The notes below the pieces were generated by a model. It saw nothing but the letters and a program-made list of their open reading frames with translations, did not search any database and had not been told where the DNA came from. DNA of 43,240 bases, from the NCBI GenBank assembly GCA_012838865.1, contig DUOK01000098.1, positions 1 to 43,240 on the forward strand, read 5' to 3'. Positions within the stretch are counted from its first letter, which is position 1. The number at the start of each line of letters is the position of its first letter. The stretch comes from Bacteroidales bacterium (GTDB taxonomy: Bacteria > Bacteroidota > Bacteroidia > Bacteroidales > Marinilabiliaceae). The translations under genes and the position numbers were made by a program. Of this stretch, positions 31,016-40,149 are shown in pieces.

Positions 31016-32053
31016 ATGAGTGAGCAGGGAAAATCATTGAACGACCTGGGTCTTTACGGCCTTATTGAACACGTCAACCAAAAAGTAGCCGAAACGCAAG
31101 AAAAGGCTGCCGGTCCGGACAGCGGCGACGACGCCGCCGCCCTGACCGAAAATCCGGAAATTCTGCAAGCCGGCACCCTGCTGCTCGAAGGCATCCACTT
31201 CGACCTCACCTACACCCCCCTGCAACACCTCGGCTTTAAAGCCGTAACCATAGCCATCAGCGACCTGCTGGCCATGAATGCCCGCCCGGTGCAACTCAGT
31301 CTCAACCTGGGCATCAGTCAAAAGATAAACCTCGACATGATCGATCAATTTGTGGAAGGTCTTTTGGCCGCCTGCACGCTTTATGGGCTACGCCTGGCCG
31401 GCTTTAAACCCGTCCCTTCCCTCACCGGCTTCACCATTGCCCTGCAGGCCACAGGAAAAGCAGCCCCGGGGGAACAGGTTCTGCGTTCCACCGCCCGGGA
31501 AAACGAAGTCTTGCTGGTAAGTGGCGACCTGGGTGGCGCCCTCATGGGCCTGCACCTGCTGGAACGCGAAAAACGCGTACTCAAAGACAACCAGGAAAGC
31601 CAGCCGGATTTTGGCAACAACGACTACGTATTGCAAAGGCAGCTGAAACCCATGGCCCGCACGACTGTTGTCGAAAAGCTGCGACAACTGGGCTTGAAAC
31701 CGGGCGCCATGACCGTGGTCACCGAAGGACTGGCCACCGCCACCCGCCTGCTTTGCAAAGCCTCCCATAAAGGCTGCCGGCTGCATGAAGAAAAAATCCC
31801 CCTGCACCAAAGCACCCTCAAAGCCGCCGCCGAACTCAACTACAATCCGCTGATTGCGGCACTCAACGGCGGGGAAGACTACGAGCTTTTGCTGACCCTG
31901 CCGGCCGAGGACTTTGAAAAAAACCGCGAAGCCCTTGAGGAAGTACTGCATCCCATCGGCTACATTTGCGCCCCCGAAAAAGCCTGTCGCATGATCAGTC
32001 GCAGCGGCGAAGAAATCGACCTTAAAGCCCGTGGCTGGGGCAACAACCAATAA
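31016..32053 (+). CDS. ThiL-like protein (AIR synthase fold) with altered catalytic residues
   Basis: The 345-residue protein aligns over its whole length with Bacteroidota thiamine-monophosphate kinase, ThiL. Shared blocks are GDDAAA (37-42), [22 protein letters not shown] (82-91), [19 protein letters not shown] and [15 protein letters not shown]. Several acidic residues expected in the ATP/Mg site are changed, judged against the family pattern I recall. The TTD before LLxEG is AGT (52-54). The GGDTT motif is GFKPV (129-133), which removes its Asp. The DISDG motif is VVTEG (234-238). A thiamine-phosphate kinase activity is therefore doubtful; it may bind ligand without catalysis or have another role. 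It starts the run with ruvA and sprA, ending 11 bases before ruvA. Confidence 0.8.
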
Positions 32054-32064
32054 AAAAAGGCAAC

Positions 32065-32646
32065 ATGTACGAATACATCTCAGGAAAAATAGTCGAAAGC
32101 AGTCCCACCCACGTCGTCCTCGAAAACAACGGACTGGGCTACTTCATCAACATTTCGCTGAACACCTATGCAGCGGTAAAGGAACTGAAAGAAACCACCC
32201 TGCTGGTGCATGAGCACATCCGTGAAGACGCCCATTTGCTCTACGGCTTTCACGAACGGGGCGAGCGCGAACTGTTTCAGCAGCTCATCTCCGTTTCGGG
32301 CATCGGTGCCAACACCGCCCGCATGATGCTCTCCTCTCTGCCTCCGGCCGAACTCCGTGCCGCCATCCTGAGCGAAAACACCGCCCAGCTGAAAAGCATA
32401 AAGGGCATCGGACTCAAAACCGCCCAACGGGTCATCGTGGACCTCAAAGACAAGCTCGGCAAGGAAGGGGCCGACCAAAAATTATTTGCCGTGGCAGACA
32501 ATACCATACGAGATGAAGCGTTATCTGCTTTAGTTATGCTGGGCTTTGCCCGCGCTGCCTCGCAAAAGGCCGTGGACAAGATTCTGGCCACTGAGCCGGG
32601 AGCACGAGTGGAGCAAGTGATTAAACTGGCACTGAAAATGATGTAG
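32065..32646 (+). CDS. ruvA: Holliday junction branch migration protein RuvA
   Basis: RuvA binds Holliday junctions as a tetramer and loads the RuvB motor. The 193 residues show the N-terminal OB-fold ([20 protein letters not shown]) and two helix-hairpin-helix motifs ([36 protein letters not shown]). The C-terminal RuvB-binding domain follows ([20 protein letters not shown]). RuvA next to sprA is a recurrent order in Bacteroidota. sprA starts 36 bases downstream. Confidence 0.96.
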
Positions 32647-32682: not shown

Positions 32683-35600
32683 TTGAAGACAAAGATCAGA
32701 TATCGCTTACTCATCCCGCTTTTGGCCTTTTTGGCCGTTATGGCCGTAGCCAGCGACCATCTTCCGGGCACAGTGCACAGCAACAACTGGCAAAGTCCCG
32801 AAGGACAGGGACTGGACGAAAGTCCCGACCCGCAGCGCATCAATCCCCCCACACAGGGACTTCCGCCCGTTCTGGAAAAGGATAAGGACCCAATAAGTCT
32901 GCCCGACCCCAACAACGTCAGCTACTCGGCCGAATACGACCCGGCTACCGGTATGGTCACCGTGTACCGAAAAATCGGAAACATTGCCGTTCGCCTGCCC
33001 TACACCATGACGCTGGAAGAGTACAACCAGCATGAACTGCGCAACTCCATGCAAAACTACTGGAGTGCCCAGACCAGCGATCAGGAGGCAGCCGGAGACG
33101 ACCAGTTTGGCCGCTTTCGGGTAGGCGGAGAAGCCTTTGAAACCGTATTCGGCAGCAACGTCATCAACATTCGCCCCCAGGGCATCGCCGAACTCAGTCT
33201 GGGTGTCCGCACCACCAAAATCGACAACCCCACCCTGCAAGAGCGCATGCGCAAGACCACCACCTTCGATTTTGATCAGCGCATTCAAATGAACATCCAG
33301 GGCACCATTGGCGATAGGTTGAAACTGGGCATCAACTACAATACCGAAGCCACCTTCGATTTTGAAAACCAAATCAGTCTGGAATACACCGGCAAGGAAG
33401 ACGACATCATCAAAAATATTGAAGCCGGAAACGTCAGCCTCTCCCTGCCCGGAACCCTCATTACAGGAAGCCAGAGTCTTTTTGGGGTAAAGACCGAAAT
33501 GCAATTCGGCAAGCTCAACGTGCAGACCATCTTTTCGCAACAAAAAGGAGAGACCTCCGTCATGAACATCCAGGGCGGCGCCCAGACCCAGGATTTTGAA
33601 GTGGCAGCCAACGAGTACGACCGCAACCGACATTTCTTTCTGTCGCACGTCTTTAAGGACCAGTTTGACCGGGCCATGGCCGACCTGCCCGTGGTCAATT
33701 CGCCCTTCAACATCAATCGTGTCGAAGTCTGGATCACCAACCGCTCGGGCGACTTTGAAAGGGCACGCAACATTGTTGCCTTTAGTGACCTGGGGGAGGG
33801 ACTCCCCAACATGGAAAAGCCCAACACCTGGAACGGTCAGCCCAACGTACGCCATCCACACAACAACGCCAACGAAATCTACCGGCGTATGACCAACGAA
33901 TACAGCGGCATACGCGACATCAATCAGAGCACCACCATCCTGTCGGCCATTCCTTCGGCCGACAATACGCCCTTTACCACGGCGCGCGACTATGAACGCA
34001 TTGAGAACGCCCGCCTGCTGCCCCAGTCGGAATACACCCTCAACAGCAAACTCGGTTACATCTCCCTGAACAGTCAGCTCAACGCCGATGAAGTCCTTGC
34101 CGTGGCCTACGAATACACCTACAACGGAGAAGTCTACCGCGTTGGAGAATTCAGCAACAGCGGCATTGAAGCCCCTCAAACCCTCCTCCTCAAACTGCTG
34201 AAGGGCACCAACCTGTCGCCCCGCATGAAAAACTGGCAGTTGATGATGAAAAACATTTACTCCATCGGAGCCTACCAGGTGAGCGACAGCGATTTCCGTC
34301 TCAACGTGGTGTATATGAACGACTCGGTGGGCACCCATCTGAATGTATTTACCGAAGAAGGCGCACAAAACGGCCAGCTCTACCTGAGCCTGCTGGGTCT
34401 CGACAAACTCAACAAGCAGTTGGAGCCCTACCCCGACGGGACCTTCGACTTTGTTCCGGGCTATACCATTATTCCGGGCCAGGGGCGCATCATTTTCCCG
34501 GTCCTTGAACCCTTTGGCCGCCACATGGAGGCGCAACTGCAGGATGTACCTGCCAACCTGCGCGAAAAATACATTTTTAAGGAGCTGTACGACTCTACGC
34601 TTACCGTGGCCAGCCAAACGGCCGAAAAAAACAAATACCGGCTTACCGGCTCCTACAAATCTTCAGGTGGGGCCGAAATCTCCCTCAATGCCTTCAACAT
34701 TCCCAGAGGGTCGGTGGTGGTGACCGCGGGCGGCTTGCGCCTCACCGAAAATGTAGATTACTCGGTGGACTATACCTCGGGGCGCATCCGCATCCTCAAC
34801 GAAGGTCTGATGGAATCGGGCACACCCATTCAGGTGGCCCTCGAAAGTCAATCGCTCTTTAACCTGCAGACCAAAACTTTGCTGGGTACCCATTTCGACT
34901 ACCGTTTCAGCGAAAACTTTAATGTAGGCGCCACCGTCATGCACTTGCGTGAGCGACCGCTCACGCAAAAAGTAGGCTTTGGCGATGAGCCCATCGCCAA
35001 CACGATATGGGGCCTCAACACTTCGTGGTACACGCCCTCGAACTTCATCACCACCCTCATCGATAAGCTGCCTTTGGTGGAGACCAAGACCCCCTCCTCG
35101 GTCAGCTTCGAAGCCGAATTTGCCCACCTTGTGCCGGGTCACCCCAGTGTTATTGAAAAAGAAGGAACGGCCTACATCGATGATTTTGAAGGCACCAAAA
35201 TCCCCATCAGCATGAAACAAAGGGATGCCTGGCATCTGGCCAGCACCCCGCAGGGACAAGCAGATAAATTTCCTCAGGCCGGAACCATCAACGACCTGCG
35301 TTACGGTTACGAACGGGCACGACTGGCCTGGTACCACATCGACCCCCTCTTTACCAGGACCAGCACCCTGACCCCCGACCACATTCGTCGCGACAAAGAC
35401 CAGCTTTCGAATCATTACGTACGTGAGGTTTACGAACGGGAAATCTTTCCCAACCGCAACCCGGCCTACGGCGAACCCACCAACATCTCGGTCCTCAACC
35501 TGGCCTACTACCCCGAGGAGCGCGGGCCCTACAACTTCAACCCCAACCTCGACTTCCACGGTCGCCTGACCCAGCCACGTACTTCGTGGGGAGGCATCAT

Positions 35601-38600
35601 GCGGCGCATCGACACCAACGATTTTGAGTCGGCCAACATCGACCACATCGAATTCTGGATCATGGACCCCTTTATTTACGATGAGGGCAGTCACCAGGGT
35701 GGGGACCTCTACATCAACCTGGGCGACATTTCGGAGGACATTCTGCGCGATTCGCGCAAGTTTTTTGAGCAGGGCCTGCCGGGACCGGGAGAACCCTTCG
35801 ATGTGGACTCCACGGCCTGGGGCTACATCCCCAAACAACAGAGTCTGGTCAATGCCTTCAGCAACGACCCCGAAACACGTTTGATGCAGGACGTCGGTCT
35901 CAACGGCATGAATTCCGAAAATGAACGACGCTTTTACCGCCAGGGCAGCAATCCTTACCTTGCGGTCATCGACAACCTTTACGCCCAGGGCAACTTGTCC
36001 GAAGCCGCTTATCAGAAAATCATCGGCGACCCCGCCGGCGATGATTTTCGCTACTTCCGCGGTCGCGAGCAGGACCAGCAGGAAATGAGCATCCTCGAAC
36101 GTTACAAATACTTCAACAACCCCGAAGGCAACTCCCGTCCCTCCGAAGATTCGGGCGAATCTTTCAGCACAGCAGCCACCAACCTGCCCGACGGCGAAGA
36201 CATCAACCGCGACAACACCCTGAGCGAGGCCGAAAACTACTACCAGTACCGCATTGCCCTGCGGCCCAACCAAATGGAAGTCGGCCAGAATTACATCACC
36301 GACGTAGTGACCGCCTCGGTCACCCTCGAAAACGGCAACACGGAGGAAGTGCGCTGGTACCAGTTTAAGGTTCCGGTGAACGACCCCGACGATAAAATCG
36401 GCAACCTCGACGACCTGCGCTCAGTGCGCTTCATGCGTATGTTTTTACATGATTTTGCCGACACCGTAGTGCTGCGCTTTGCCTCACTGGATTTGATTCG
36501 TGCCGAATGGCGACGTTACGAGCGCGACCTCAACGACCCCATCGACCGCAACAATGTAAACCCCAATCCGGATACGCGCTTTGAAGTATCTGCCGTCAAC
36601 ATCGAAGAAAACGGTCGCCGCGAGCCCGTCAACTACATTCTGCCTCCGGGCATCGACCGGGTCATCGATCCTGCCAACCCCTCGGTACGAGAGCTCAACG
36701 AACAATCTCTGGCACTCAAAATCGGCGCCCTGGCCAGTGGCGATTCCCGGGCGGTTTATAAAAACACCGAGCTCGACATCCGGCAATACCAGCGCATCAA
36801 AATGGAGATCCATGCCGAAGCCGTGGAAGGCTACGACCTCAGAGATGGGGAAATGACCGCCTTCATACGCCTGGGCACCGACTACCAAAACAACTACTAC
36901 GAATACGAATTGCCCCTGAAGCTGACGCCACCCGGTTATTACGTCGACAACAATCCGGGGCACCGCCAAATTGTCTGGCCCGAAGACAACCGGCTCGACC
37001 TGCCCCTGGAACTCCTGAGGGATGTCAAACTCCGAAGGAACGATGCCATGCGCAGGTCCGATTCGAACCTGCAATTGGCCAACGAGTACAGCTTTCCCGA
37101 TCCGGAAAAACCCAACAACACCGTTAAAGTACGGGGAAATCCCAACCTGGCCAATGTGCGCACCATCATGATTGGGGTACGCAACAGCAGTCGCGACGAA
37201 AAAACCACCGAAGTGTGGTTCAACGAGCTGCGACTGACCGACTTCAACGAGCGGGGCGGCTGGGCCGCCAACAGCCGTATGAACATTAAGCTGGCCGATC
37301 TGGGTTCGGTTTCGGTAGCAGGAAGGGCCAGTACCGTAGGCTTTGGAAGTATCGACCAGAGTGTGAACGAACGCAGCCAGGAGAATTTTTACCAGTACGA
37401 TGTAGCCACCAACCTCGAGCTGGGCAAATTCCTCGGACCCGACAGTCGCCTTTCCATTCCCTTTTATGCAGGCATCAGCGAACAGGTAGCGACCCCCGAA
37501 TACAATCCGCTCGACCCCGATGTGCCCCTGGATATGGCCCTCGACCATGCCGCCAACAAGGCCGAACGCGACAGCATCAAACAAACAGCGCAGGATTACG
37601 TCAAACGCAAGAGCTTTAACTTTACCAACGTGCGTCTGCAACCCAGGGATGAGCAGCAGCCCTTCTATTCCCCCACCAACCTGAGTGCCACCTATTCGTA
37701 CAACGAAACCTACCGGCGCAACAACGAAACAGAGTACCTCACCGACAAAAACTATCGGGGCATCCTGGGTTACAACTACCTGCACCGCCCCCAGCCCATT
37801 GAACCCTTCAAAGCGCTGCAGGGGGAGGCCTTTAAGCTTTTGCGCGACTTCAACTTTTACCTGGCGCCTACTCAGGTGGGTTACCGCTGGGAAGTGATGC
37901 GGGGCTACCGCGAAGAACAGTTGCGCAACCTGAGCAATCCCGAATTTGCCATTCCCGTTTACGTCGACAAAAATTTCTACTGGAACCGGCATTTCGACCT
38001 GACCTACAACCTCACCCGCTCCCTGAAATTCGATTTCCGGTCGACCAACAATGCGGTCATTGACGAGCCGGAGGGACCCGTAAGCAAAAACCGCTATCGC
38101 GATGAGTACGAGCAGTGGAAGGATTCGGTAATGGACAAGCTCCTGAGTATGGGACGCACCACCAATTACCAACACAACGTCAACATCAGCTACAACCTGC
38201 CCATCAACAAATTGCCGTATATGGACTGGACTTCAGCCACCCTTAATTACGGCGCCTTGTACAACTGGCAGCAGGGCCCCGTTACCCGGCTCGACTACGA
38301 TTGGGGCAACGTCATCCGCAACTCCAACAACATCCAGGGCAACGCACAGTTGAACTTCAACACCCTTTACAACAAGTCGACCTACCTGCGCGAACTCAAC
38401 CGTCCGGTACGCCGGGGACAACAGGCCGCTGCCAATCAGGGCGAAAGTGTGCGCTTTACCCAGCACAACCAACAACTTACAGCCGGTGAACCCTTTACCG
38501 TTTCGCACCAACTCGGCACCAGTACCGTTACCGCCCGGGTCTTTAACGAATCGGGGCAACCGGTGCGCGGCCGGCAGGACGTACTCGACAACAACACCCT

Positions 38601-40149
38601 CACCTTTACCTCCGATGAAGACATCAGCAATGCCCGCATCATGGTTACAGGTCGCAAAACGGAAGAACCCAATGCCGGCAAACAGATCAAAGATTTTGGT
38701 CTGCGCCTGTTGACCAGTCTCCGCAACGTCACGCTCACCTATTCCGAAAACAACGGAACCATCTTACCCGGATACATGCCGGGCAGCAAGTTCATGGGTA
38801 CCGAAAACTATCAGGGACTCTCTGCCCCGGGCCTTCCCTTCATGCTGGGTTGGCAGGAAAGGGACTTCGCCTACCGGGCCGCCGAAAACAACTGGCTGAG
38901 TACCGACTCTACCCTCAACTCGGCCTATGTCATGAACCACACCCGCGATCTGACTGTACGGGTGATGCTCGAACCGCTTCCCGGCATGAAAATAGACCTG
39001 AACGCCAATCAGCGCTATGCCAACAACATGAACGAGTACTACCTCTATCAGAACGGGGGCTTCGATGCCTACAACACCACTGAGAACGGCAGTTTCTCAA
39101 TGACCTTCAACGCCATTGCCACCGCTTTCCAGAAGGTGGACAAAAAAGGCAGCTTCCAATCGGAGGCCTTCGACCAGTTTTTACAAAACAGGCAGACCAT
39201 CGCGCGCCGACTGGCAGAGGAGCGCCGGGGACAAATCATTCCCACCGGCATCTATGGCGACAGTCCCTATGCCGCCACCGAAGGACAAGCCTACAACCCC
39301 GATGGTTACCCCGATGAAAATCTGCCCGCCGGCAGCGGTCGCGACGGCTACAGCCTGAGCGCCCAGGACGTGATGATTCCGGCCTTTCTGGCGGCCTATT
39401 CCGGCAAGAGCGCCGACAACATCTTCTTAAAAGCCATGCCTTCCCTTCTGCATATGCAGCCCAACTGGCGCGTGACCTACGACGGGCTCTCCCGCGTAAA
39501 GTTTTTGCAAAAATACATTCGTTCCTTCGACTTAAGTCACGCCTACCGGTCGACCTACAACGTGGGCCAGTACCTCACCAATCTCGATTGGGAGGACATG
39601 CGCGACGGCTTCAGCTATGTACGCGATGAGCAGGGCAACTTTGTTCCCAAATACGAAATCAGCGGCGTCTCCATCTCCGAGCAGTTTGCCCCCTTCCTGC
39701 AATTCAACATCACCTGGAACAACAGTCTCTCTACCCGGGCCGAATACAAAAAGGGCCGCATCCTCAACCTGAGTCTGAACAACAACCAGCTGATTGAGAA
39801 CCACAACAGCGAATGGGTGGTGGGACTGGGTTACCGCTTCGACAAAATGAACATGATCCTGGGCTCGGGCAACGGACAGCGCCAAATGTCTTCGGACCTT
39901 AACCTGCGCGCCGACCTCTCCATACGCGACAACTTCTCCATCATCCGACGGATAGAGGAAAGGATGAATCAGATGACGGCAGGACAGCGCATCACCACCC
40001 TTAAATTTACGGCCGACTACGTACTGAGCGACCGCTTTAACATGCAGCTCTTTTACGACCGCGACATCAGTGCCCCCTACATATCAACCAGCTATCCCAT
40101 CACCAACAGCAGCTTCGGTGTTAATTTCCGCTTTTCACTGGCGCAATAA
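32683..40149 (+). CDS. sprA: Type IX secretion translocon SprA (SOV)
   Basis: SprA is the giant outer-membrane beta-barrel through which T9SS cargo passes. At 2488 residues it has the usual SprA size. The TTG at 32683 gives a good signal peptide (KIRYRLLIPLLAFLAVMAVA). No suitable upstream ATG exists, and the first in-frame ATG lies inside the signal sequence. Family features include the early barrel region (DFDQRIQMNIQGTIGDRLKL), repeated ERPLTQKVGFGDEPIAN-like strand segments, the IDDFEGTKIPISM plug-region block, and a C-terminal set of aromatic-rich strands ending in FGVNFRFSLAQ. It supports surface export of CTD-bearing proteins and, in gliders, adhesins. PorW/SprE follows 2 kb downstream. 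Confidence 0.95.
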   Translation: MKTKIRYRLLIPLLAFLAVMAVASDHLPGTVHSNNWQSPEGQGLDESPDPQRINPPTQGLPPVLEKDKDPISLPDPNNVSYSAEYDPATGMVTVYRKIGNIAVRLPYTMTLEEYNQHELRNSMQNYWSAQTSDQEAAGDDQFGRFRVGGEAFETVFGSNVINIRPQGIAELSLGVRTTKIDNPTLQERMRKTTTFDFDQRIQMNIQGTIGDRLKLGINYNTEATFDFENQISLEYTGKEDDIIKNIEAGNVSLSLPGTLITGSQSLFGVKTEMQFGKLNVQTIFSQQKGETSVMNIQGGAQTQDFEVAANEYDRNRHFFLSHVFKDQFDRAMADLPVVNSPFNINRVEVWITNRSGDFERARNIVAFSDLGEGLPNMEKPNTWNGQPNVRHPHNNANEIYRRMTNEYSGIRDINQSTTILSAIPSADNTPFTTARDYERIENARLLPQSEYTLNSKLGYISLNSQLNADEVLAVAYEYTYNGEVYRVGEFSNSGIEAPQTLLLKLLKGTNLSPRMKNWQLMMKNIYSIGAYQVSDSDFRLNVVYMNDSVGTHLNVFTEEGAQNGQLYLSLLGLDKLNKQLEPYPDGTFDFVPGYTIIPGQGRIIFPVLEPFGRHMEAQLQDVPANLREKYIFKELYDSTLTVASQTAEKNKYRLTGSYKSSGGAEISLNAFNIPRGSVVVTAGGLRLTENVDYSVDYTSGRIRILNEGLMESGTPIQVALESQSLFNLQTKTLLGTHFDYRFSENFNVGATVMHLRERPLTQKVGFGDEPIANTIWGLNTSWYTPSNFITTLIDKLPLVETKTPSSVSFEAEFAHLVPGHPSVIEKEGTAYIDDFEGTKIPISMKQRDAWHLASTPQGQADKFPQAGTINDLRYGYERARLAWYHIDPLFTRTSTLTPDHIRRDKDQLSNHYVREVYEREIFPNRNPAYGEPTNISVLNLAYYPEERGPYNFNPNLDFHGRLTQPRTSWGGIMRRIDTNDFESANIDHIEFWIMDPFIYDEGSHQGGDLYINLGDISEDILRDSRKFFEQGLPGPGEPFDVDSTAWGYIPKQQSLVNAFSNDPETRLMQDVGLNGMNSENERRFYRQGSNPYLAVIDNLYAQGNLSEAAYQKIIGDPAGDDFRYFRGREQDQQEMSILERYKYFNNPEGNSRPSEDSGESFSTAATNLPDGEDINRDNTLSEAENYYQYRIALRPNQMEVGQNYITDVVTASVTLENGNTEEVRWYQFKVPVNDPDDKIGNLDDLRSVRFMRMFLHDFADTVVLRFASLDLIRAEWRRYERDLNDPIDRNNVNPNPDTRFEVSAVNIEENGRREPVNYILPPGIDRVIDPANPSVRELNEQSLALKIGALASGDSRAVYKNTELDIRQYQRIKMEIHAEAVEGYDLRDGEMTAFIRLGTDYQNNYYEYELPLKLTPPGYYVDNNPGHRQIVWPEDNRLDLPLELLRDVKLRRNDAMRRSDSNLQLANEYSFPDPEKPNNTVKVRGNPNLANVRTIMIGVRNSSRDEKTTEVWFNELRLTDFNERGGWAANSRMNIKLADLGSVSVAGRASTVGFGSIDQSVNERSQENFYQYDVATNLELGKFLGPDSRLSIPFYAGISEQVATPEYNPLDPDVPLDMALDHAANKAERDSIKQTAQDYVKRKSFNFTNVRLQPRDEQQPFYSPTNLSATYSYNETYRRNNETEYLTDKNYRGILGYNYLHRPQPIEPFKALQGEAFKLLRDFNFYLAPTQVGYRWEVMRGYREEQLRNLSNPEFAIPVYVDKNFYWNRHFDLTYNLTRSLKFDFRSTNNAVIDEPEGPVSKNRYRDEYEQWKDSVMDKLLSMGRTTNYQHNVNISYNLPINKLPYMDWTSATLNYGALYNWQQGPVTRLDYDWGNVIRNSNNIQGNAQLNFNTLYNKSTYLRELNRPVRRGQQAAANQGESVRFTQHNQQLTAGEPFTVSHQLGTSTVTARVFNESGQPVRGRQDVLDNNTLTFTSDEDISNARIMVTGRKTEEPNAGKQIKDFGLRLLTSLRNVTLTYSENNGTILPGYMPGSKFMGTENYQGLSAPGLPFMLGWQERDFAYRAAENNWLSTDSTLNSAYVMNHTRDLTVRVMLEPLPGMKIDLNANQRYANNMNEYYLYQNGGFDAYNTTENGSFSMTFNAIATAFQKVDKKGSFQSEAFDQFLQNRQTIARRLAEERRGQIIPTGIYGDSPYAATEGQAYNPDGYPDENLPAGSGRDGYSLSAQDVMIPAFLAAYSGKSADNIFLKAMPSLLHMQPNWRVTYDGLSRVKFLQKYIRSFDLSHAYRSTYNVGQYLTNLDWEDMRDGFSYVRDEQGNFVPKYEISGVSISEQFAPFLQFNITWNNSLSTRAEYKKGRILNLSLNNNQLIENHNSEWVVGLGYRFDKMNMILGSGNGQRQMSSDLNLRADLSIRDNFSIIRRIEERMNQMTAGQRITTLKFTADYVLSDRFNMQLFYDRDISAPYISTSYPITNSSFGVNFRFSLAQ

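Follow-up and report, generated by a model that had tools for sequence, protein, structure and literature searches.

A thiL-like gene with altered kinase motifs

The window, meaning the whole stretch of 43,240 nt of Marinilabiliaceae DNA that was analysed, contains at positions 31016-32053 of the forward strand one intact open reading frame of 345 aa starting from ATG, followed by ruvA and sprA. The features relevant here are given below, with counterparts in Pseudomonas aeruginosa ThiL as named in PMC13254938.

31016..32053, + strand: thiL-like coding sequence, 345 aa, a native (type I) ThiL whose kinase motifs are lost (open reading frame, profile score, AlphaFold2 model)
31052..31054, + strand: residue 13, Leu in place of the Glu in the N-terminal GEFG motif (alignment)
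31169..31177, + strand: residues 52-54, AGT replacing [ST]TD; D54 corresponds to the metal ligand Asp47
31196..31198, + strand: His61, retained; counterpart of the TMP-contact residue His54
31262..31264, + strand: Asp83, retained; counterpart of the metal ligand Asp75
31400..31414, + strand: residues 129-133, GFKPV replacing GGDTT; nucleotide/metal positions Gly121/Asp122/Thr123
31715..31729, + strand: residues 234-238, VVTEG replacing D[IV]SDG
31865..31891, + strand: residues 284-292, NGGEDYELL, retained
32065..32646, + strand: ruvA, downstream neighbour; gene order of the family Marinilabiliaceae, not specific to kinase-dead copies
32683..40149, + strand: sprA, second downstream neighbour; gene order of the family Marinilabiliaceae

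The protein reaches 206.6 bits with the thiL profile TIGR01379 and thus exceeds the cut-off of 184.15, so annotation pipelines would still name it a kinase. It lies below both curated NCBIfam cut-offs for selD (41.6 of 125 bits) and hypE (32.9 of 251.6 bits). The AlphaFold2 model has a predicted ThiL fold with a mean pLDDT of 86.9; values below 50 occur at the two ends and in residues 31-44, the stretch containing the GDD loop. In a Foldseek search with this predicted model ThiL chains rank first, and the ten best VIA-align rows are all ThiL (Z 31.9-33.2, rmsd 1.9-3.0, 265-299 residues), with 3c9u at Z 33.2 and rmsd 2.2 over 274 residues. The predicted fold and the TMP-contact His are shared with the solved ThiL proteins of Aquifex aeolicus (3C9T/3C9U), Acinetobacter baumannii (5DD7) and P. 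aeruginosa (8YKU). Profile score, full-length homology and structural matches agree with the first-pass annotation, made from the letters of the window, that ThiL signatures extend over the full length of the protein.

In P. aeruginosa ThiL, PMC13254938 names Asp30, Asp47, Asp75, Asp122, Asp211 and Ser45 as metal ligands, Gly28, Gly121 and Thr123 as nucleotide contacts and His54 and Tyr189 as TMP contacts, with Asp29, Ser213, Asp214, Asp219 and His222 as further active-site residues. The same paper reports Asn at the Asp122 position of A. aeolicus ThiL; hence, a single such change is tolerated. The active site is located in the dimer interface, with TMP bound within one subunit, as stated in PMC6416309. 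We transferred the ligands by motif and alignment, and the assignment of Tyr189 to K211 is our own mapping. Glu287 and Trp341 are presumably substrate residues as well, based on database annotation.

The annotated replacement of TTD, GGDTT and DISDG by AGT (52-54), GFKPV (129-133) and VVTEG (234-238) proved exact in coordinates, frame and residues. Displacement of the catalytic Asp residues does not explain it: in a MAFFT alignment of the window protein with 166 relatives selected for bearing the motifs, the alignment is unshifted, columns 54, 131, 234 and 237 are Asp in 166/166 relatives and T, K, V and E here, and HMMER alignments to the solved ThiL chains agree on motif placement. Among the aspartates described as strictly conserved in P. 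aeruginosa ThiL (Asp30, 47, 75 and 211), the window protein keeps two (D39, D83) and loses two (T54, V234); with Asp122 and Asp214, which correspond to K131 and E237, four of the six members of the metal/ATP Asp set are replaced.

A second ThiL and a clade of kinase-dead copies

A second, canonical thiL, which the first-pass annotation had proposed to look for, is present in the same genome at G000:C261:1889-2863 (locus L092; G, C, L and f are our labels for genomes, contigs, loci and families). This type II ThiL is likewise a ThiL by TIGR01379 (310.5 bits), but all its motifs are canonical, and it is 32% identical to the window protein. A third ThiL match in the genome is weak (22.7 bits) and below the cut-off.

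ThiL matches were obtained in 65 of the 71 Marinilabiliaceae genomes searched and in none of the other six; genome G043 yielded a fragment only. The full type I gene could be read in 64 genomes, 45 with and 19 without the motifs. We call the latter copies kinase-dead, which denotes a class by motif loss in the sequence, assigned from three of the motifs. Type II ThiL occurs in 22/71 genomes, comprising all 19 with a kinase-dead type I gene and three with a canonical one (G018, G031, G050), while the catalytic motifs are kept in all 42 genomes that have a full type I but no type II gene. In a tree calculated without the motif columns, the 19 kinase-dead copies, which carry nine genus labels, form one clade with support 100/99. 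Judged from this tree, motif loss in Marinilabiliaceae is a single event, after which the lineage split into two subclades. Related losses are thus shared across a clade of 19 genomes, and all 19 copies have full-length open frames. The type I gene of G031 (L088) has canonical motifs on a very long branch (1.51), perhaps as a sign of early relaxation; this genome also possesses type II ThiL and a pyrophosphokinase.

In nine other genomes, three of Marinilabiliaceae and six of the order, a type II match lies less than 1 kb from a thiE match on the same contig, and in two of these nine a TPP riboswitch was detected near the type II/thiE genes in a scan of the Marinilabiliaceae loci. These are L040 and L046, where the riboswitches lie by the thiE-type II ThiL pair of G018 and G050, and type I is catalytic in both. 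At gathering score, no TPP riboswitch was found within the window or near type II in the kinase-dead genomes, for which 17 of 19 loci were scanned (20 sources overall).

The location before ruvA and the T9SS gene sprA had been taken as a hint of a non-thiamine role. The same order is found beside catalytic copies, however. Neighbours were counted at 30 Marinilabiliaceae loci flanked by up to 1.5 kb per side, the other 34 loci having too little flank: ruvA directly follows thiL in 14/15 kinase-dead and 15/15 catalytic copies, the exception being the kinase-dead L014, and sprA is next after ruvA in 14/15 and 13/15 copies, respectively (27/30 loci). The window gene is therefore the native, positional ThiL, and its place is no evidence for a T9SS or recombination role; deriving such a role from the genomic place was rejected. 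In other families the kinase-dead copies lie beside different genes, which from their sequence starts we take to be ispG-like, suf and dnaE-like, purine nucleoside phosphorylase and SpoIID-like genes, and clustering found no neighbour common to kinase-dead copies across families.

Within the 19 copies, the catalytic residue is kept in 58/266 nucleotide/metal cells against 1578/1976 cells at 104 other conserved columns, a contrast that is partly circular since three of the counted motifs defined the class. On the TMP side, 70/76 cells are kept at four positions, two of them based on database annotation; the two positions given in PMC13254938 alone are kept in 34/38 cells and do not differ from the other conserved columns (p 0.22). 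New residue classes occupy positions 113, 130, 131, 132 and 240 in at least 90% of the clade, among them Phe130 in 18/19, Lys or Arg at 131 in 18/19, where the 166 motif-bearing relatives have Asp, and Pro132 in 19/19 members. The net charge over seven acidic ligand positions changes from -7 to between -2 and -4. The claim that just the metal/ATP ligands had been lost was slightly too strong: the motif ligands are gone, but Asp39 (19/19), Asp83 (16/19) and an acid at 237 (18/19) survive in most of the clade and may perhaps suffice for a residual metal site. Similarly, the scaffold motifs GDD, SD..AMN and NGGEDYELL are all retained in the window protein as annotated, but across the clade D38 is found in 7/19 copies and parts of SD..AMN drift, with D39 (19/19) and NGG.D persisting.

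Ratios of dN/dS were calculated by the Nei-Gojobori method with our own script. For four genome pairs they amount to 0.185, 0.060, 0.046 and 0.111 for the kinase-dead type I gene and to 0.107, 0.068, 0.092 and 0.123 for type II, where dS is about 1 or more in the pair G037-G036; pairs from f2 and f9 have saturated dS and yield no ratio. For ruvA, two of the pairs gave 0.045 (type I there 0.185) and 0.060 (type I there 0.060). In the window's own pair, parts of nusA and sprA gave 0.008 and 0.087, and the kinase-dead gene is the fastest of the five genes compared. Overall, constraint on the kinase-dead type I gene is similar to that on its type II paralogue, and the gene is under purifying selection, not decaying. 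Together with the second canonical ThiL and the clade-wide related losses, this upholds the first-pass interpretation as a pseudoenzyme or changed activity as opposed to decay.

Losses in other families and alternative TPP-making enzymes

Across 393 genomes of the order, a profile built from the kinase-dead clade matched in 380 and a type II profile reached E 1e-60 in 339. A second search covered the genomes whose type I gene missed E 1e-60 with the type II profile, and motifs were read wherever a locus was available. In a class-level sample of 227 genomes, 31 fell under the E 1e-60 line, of which two had been read before and 29 were searched again, 20 of them with a match. Kinase-dead or partly dead copies were found in the order in families f2 (4), f9 (5), f87 (1), f91 (1) and f55 (4, three of which keep most ligands), and the class sample added three broken copies in f172 (2) and f169 (1, mild). 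In total there are 37 kinase-dead copies in eight families, 18 of them outside Marinilabiliaceae in seven families, with four of the 18 mild. A tree of 101 rows, 30 of them kinase-dead (f172 and f169 left out), was built by a quick method with the ligand columns removed and has many weak forks. It requires six state changes, and no fewer than four when weakly supported branches are disregarded. These sequences suggest repeated, independent loss of the kinase site in Bacteroidia.

Some changes recur in these copies. Glu13 of the GEFG motif is lost in 37/37 kinase-dead copies (34/34 at order level, 3/3 at class level) and kept in all 15 Asp-intact class-level copies showing the position. Gly130, whose counterpart contacts the ribose according to the structural literature, is Phe, Leu or Ile in 30/37 copies and five of the eight families; it remains Gly in f55, f172 and f169. 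Thr132, whose counterpart contacts the adenine in the same literature, is Pro, Val, Ile or Leu in 36/37 copies. Val, Ile or Leu at 132 is found also in nine Asp-intact copies of other families (L282, L284, L285 and six of f162), which makes the column a poor indicator; it was dropped as a marker of dead sites, for which Glu13 and Gly130 are more reliable. The nucleotide site thus seems, by its residues, to have been closed in parallel in five families. This would suit a protein that has given up ATP binding yet still has to fold.

Three further groups of sequences deserve mention. The six f162 copies (L293, L294, L296-L299; genomes G629, G656, G570, G600, G537, G499) have intact metal-binding Asp residues, the TMP-contact His changed to Asp (E-x-W-D-F), GGED changed to GGEE and Ile or Leu in place of Thr132; their genomes gave no pyrophosphokinase match, and their substrate handling is possibly altered. 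L284 and L285 of f136 (G473, G668) are Asp-intact with GGDTT changed to GGDIA and SDG to SDS, possibly a beginning loss, and a pyrophosphokinase is present in both genomes. In G156, G257 and G409 of f87, two ThiE-like matches close together in open frames of 647-683 aa suggest a fused thiamine synthase protein.

Another TPP-making enzyme is present in 37/37 kinase-dead genomes: type II ThiL in 21 (the 19 Marinilabiliaceae plus G124 and G392) and thiamine pyrophosphokinase (TIGR01378) in 16. A rule that kinase loss occurs only with type II ThiL is ruled out by the losses without it; rather, in the genomes sampled, kinase loss is found only where some other TPP-making enzyme exists. In the 393-genome sample such an enzyme accompanies 17/17 kinase-dead but 84/349 catalytic copies, by counts compiled by hand (Fisher p 1e-10, a value inflated by relatedness). 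By family this is 6/6 against 24% in the order sample, and 8/8 once the class sample is added. The 349 catalytic copies were classified by profile score (333, some also read), among which a single changed ligand could hide, or by reading (16), in some cases from partial genes; left out were 13 genomes with no match, seven whose matches were all type II, unrelated or very short, and seven with fragments only. The 84 catalytic genomes with an alternative have a pyrophosphokinase in 76 cases (one under the cut-off) and only type II ThiL in eight (one a fragment). Since these 84 keep a catalytic type I gene, the alternative enzyme permits loss and does not force it.

Five genomes with a pyrophosphokinase (G160, G347, G361, G405, which is 71% complete, and G411) and one with type II (G181) have no full type I gene. 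In six Bacteroidales genomes that are at least 92% complete (G173, G412, G416, G135, G228, G346), neither ThiL nor pyrophosphokinase was found and only weak SelD-like matches were obtained, pointing to another TPP source or to assembly gaps. Some Bacteroidetes import thiamine via pnuT-tnr3 operons, and Alistipes is wholly transport-dependent, as described in PMC5613172; in such a setting ThiL catalysis could be dispensable.

Possible roles of the kinase-dead protein

We consider it probable, at roughly 0.65, that the window protein is a native ThiL turned into a non-catalytic ThiL-fold protein that has lost its ATP/metal site and acts by binding. That kinase activity is gone, and in which order the events took place, is inferred, and the binding target (thiamine phosphate, a protein partner, or both) is guessed. 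An ancestor of this Marinilabiliaceae subclade would have had a type II ThiL able to supply TMP kinase activity. The native copy could then have lost its ATP/metal site, with the bulky Phe130 and Pro132 at the place of the nucleotide and Lys or Arg instead of the Mg-binding Asp131. The fold would have been kept, as would, in the Marinilabiliaceae clade, the residues in contact with thiamine phosphate. Today the product is probably a dimeric ThiL-fold protein without nucleotide binding, kept for a binding function.

For the Marinilabiliaceae copies, in which the TMP side persists, a thiamine-phosphate-binding protein (a buffer, carrier or sensor) would be the most economical guess from the residues. 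Retained TMP binding as the specific function was not upheld as a general answer: it is suggested in Marinilabiliaceae, not in f9 (6/20 TMP-side cells), and is weak on the two sourced positions. Since f9 has an eroded TMP side too, a role as protein scaffold is equally likely when all families are considered. Human SEPHS1 (selenophosphate synthetase 1, SelD-like) is not known to make selenophosphate and serves as a structural partner. It is an AIRS-fold enzyme paralogue like the window protein, and the entry 9hjt 'Zincore (SEPHS1:QRICH1)' is among the structural matches (Z 22.4, rmsd 4.0 over 271 residues). However, it comes from a different enzyme family (17% identical in the aligned part), is eukaryotic and was solved with ADP according to the title of 3fd6, and it may serve by analogy as a same-fold precedent for the working mode, not as a functional relative.

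The first alternative, a changed enzyme, would use Asp39, Asp83 and Glu237 as a reduced metal site together with the new Lys/Arg131 for a different reaction, e.g. as a phosphatase. The persistence of these three acids in most of the clade and the fixation of residues 130-132 agree with this idea, but a bulky residue sits at the nucleotide-contact Gly130 in five lineages, f9 has kept the gene with the triad almost wholly gone (D39 0/5, D83 0/5, acid at 237 1/5), and no neighbour common across families names a pathway. We regard it as unlikely. Less probable still is that the protein regulates the active type II ThiL or forms a heterodimer with it, in the way that some pseudokinases regulate an active paralogue: ThiL works as a dimer with its active site at the interface (PMC6416309) and all 19 kinase-dead Marinilabiliaceae copies coexist with type II, but the two paralogues are just 32% identical, and the kinase-dead copies of f2, f9, f87, f91 and two f55 genomes occur without a type II match. 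That the protein is still a TMP kinase with unusual ligands, as its score above the curated thiL cut-off and some remaining acidic residues would allow, is very improbable given T, K and V at the metal ligands Asp47, Asp122 and Asp211 (PMC13254938), Asp at those columns in 166 motif-bearing relatives and the canonical paralogue. A decaying relic, for which the long branches in the clade and a rate above that of ruvA in one of two pairs (0.185 vs 0.045, with 0.060 for both genes in the other) might be cited, is equally hard to reconcile with full-length frames in 19/19 copies, dN/dS of 0.046-0.185 as in the type II paralogue and residues newly fixed across the clade.

The non-catalytic, binding ThiL-fold protein favoured here may be part of a broader pattern. 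Tentatively, and with somewhat less than even odds, the native ThiL of Bacteroidia would have an ancestral second, non-kinase function, so that the kinase site becomes free to be lost once another TPP-making enzyme (a second ThiL or thiamine pyrophosphokinase) takes over, as in several lineages, and the protein stays; the window protein would then count among four or more independent, naturally occurring separation-of-function versions. Such a second role would not be essential in every genome, since several with an alternative enzyme lack a full type I gene.

Pseudoenzymes as such are well known, and ThiL is usually regarded as a drug target and as an enzyme with one biosynthetic purpose. A search of openly licensed PMC papers found none titled on a kinase-dead ThiL, and to our knowledge a recurrent pseudoenzyme in the ThiL family, tied to the replacement of its reaction, is new. 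The apparently repeated loss of the kinase site, with the protein kept under selection, offers natural variants by which a hidden second role can be tested directly. In addition, a kinase-dead thiL can be annotated as a thiamine-phosphate kinase, which may mislead predictions of vitamin B1 synthesis.
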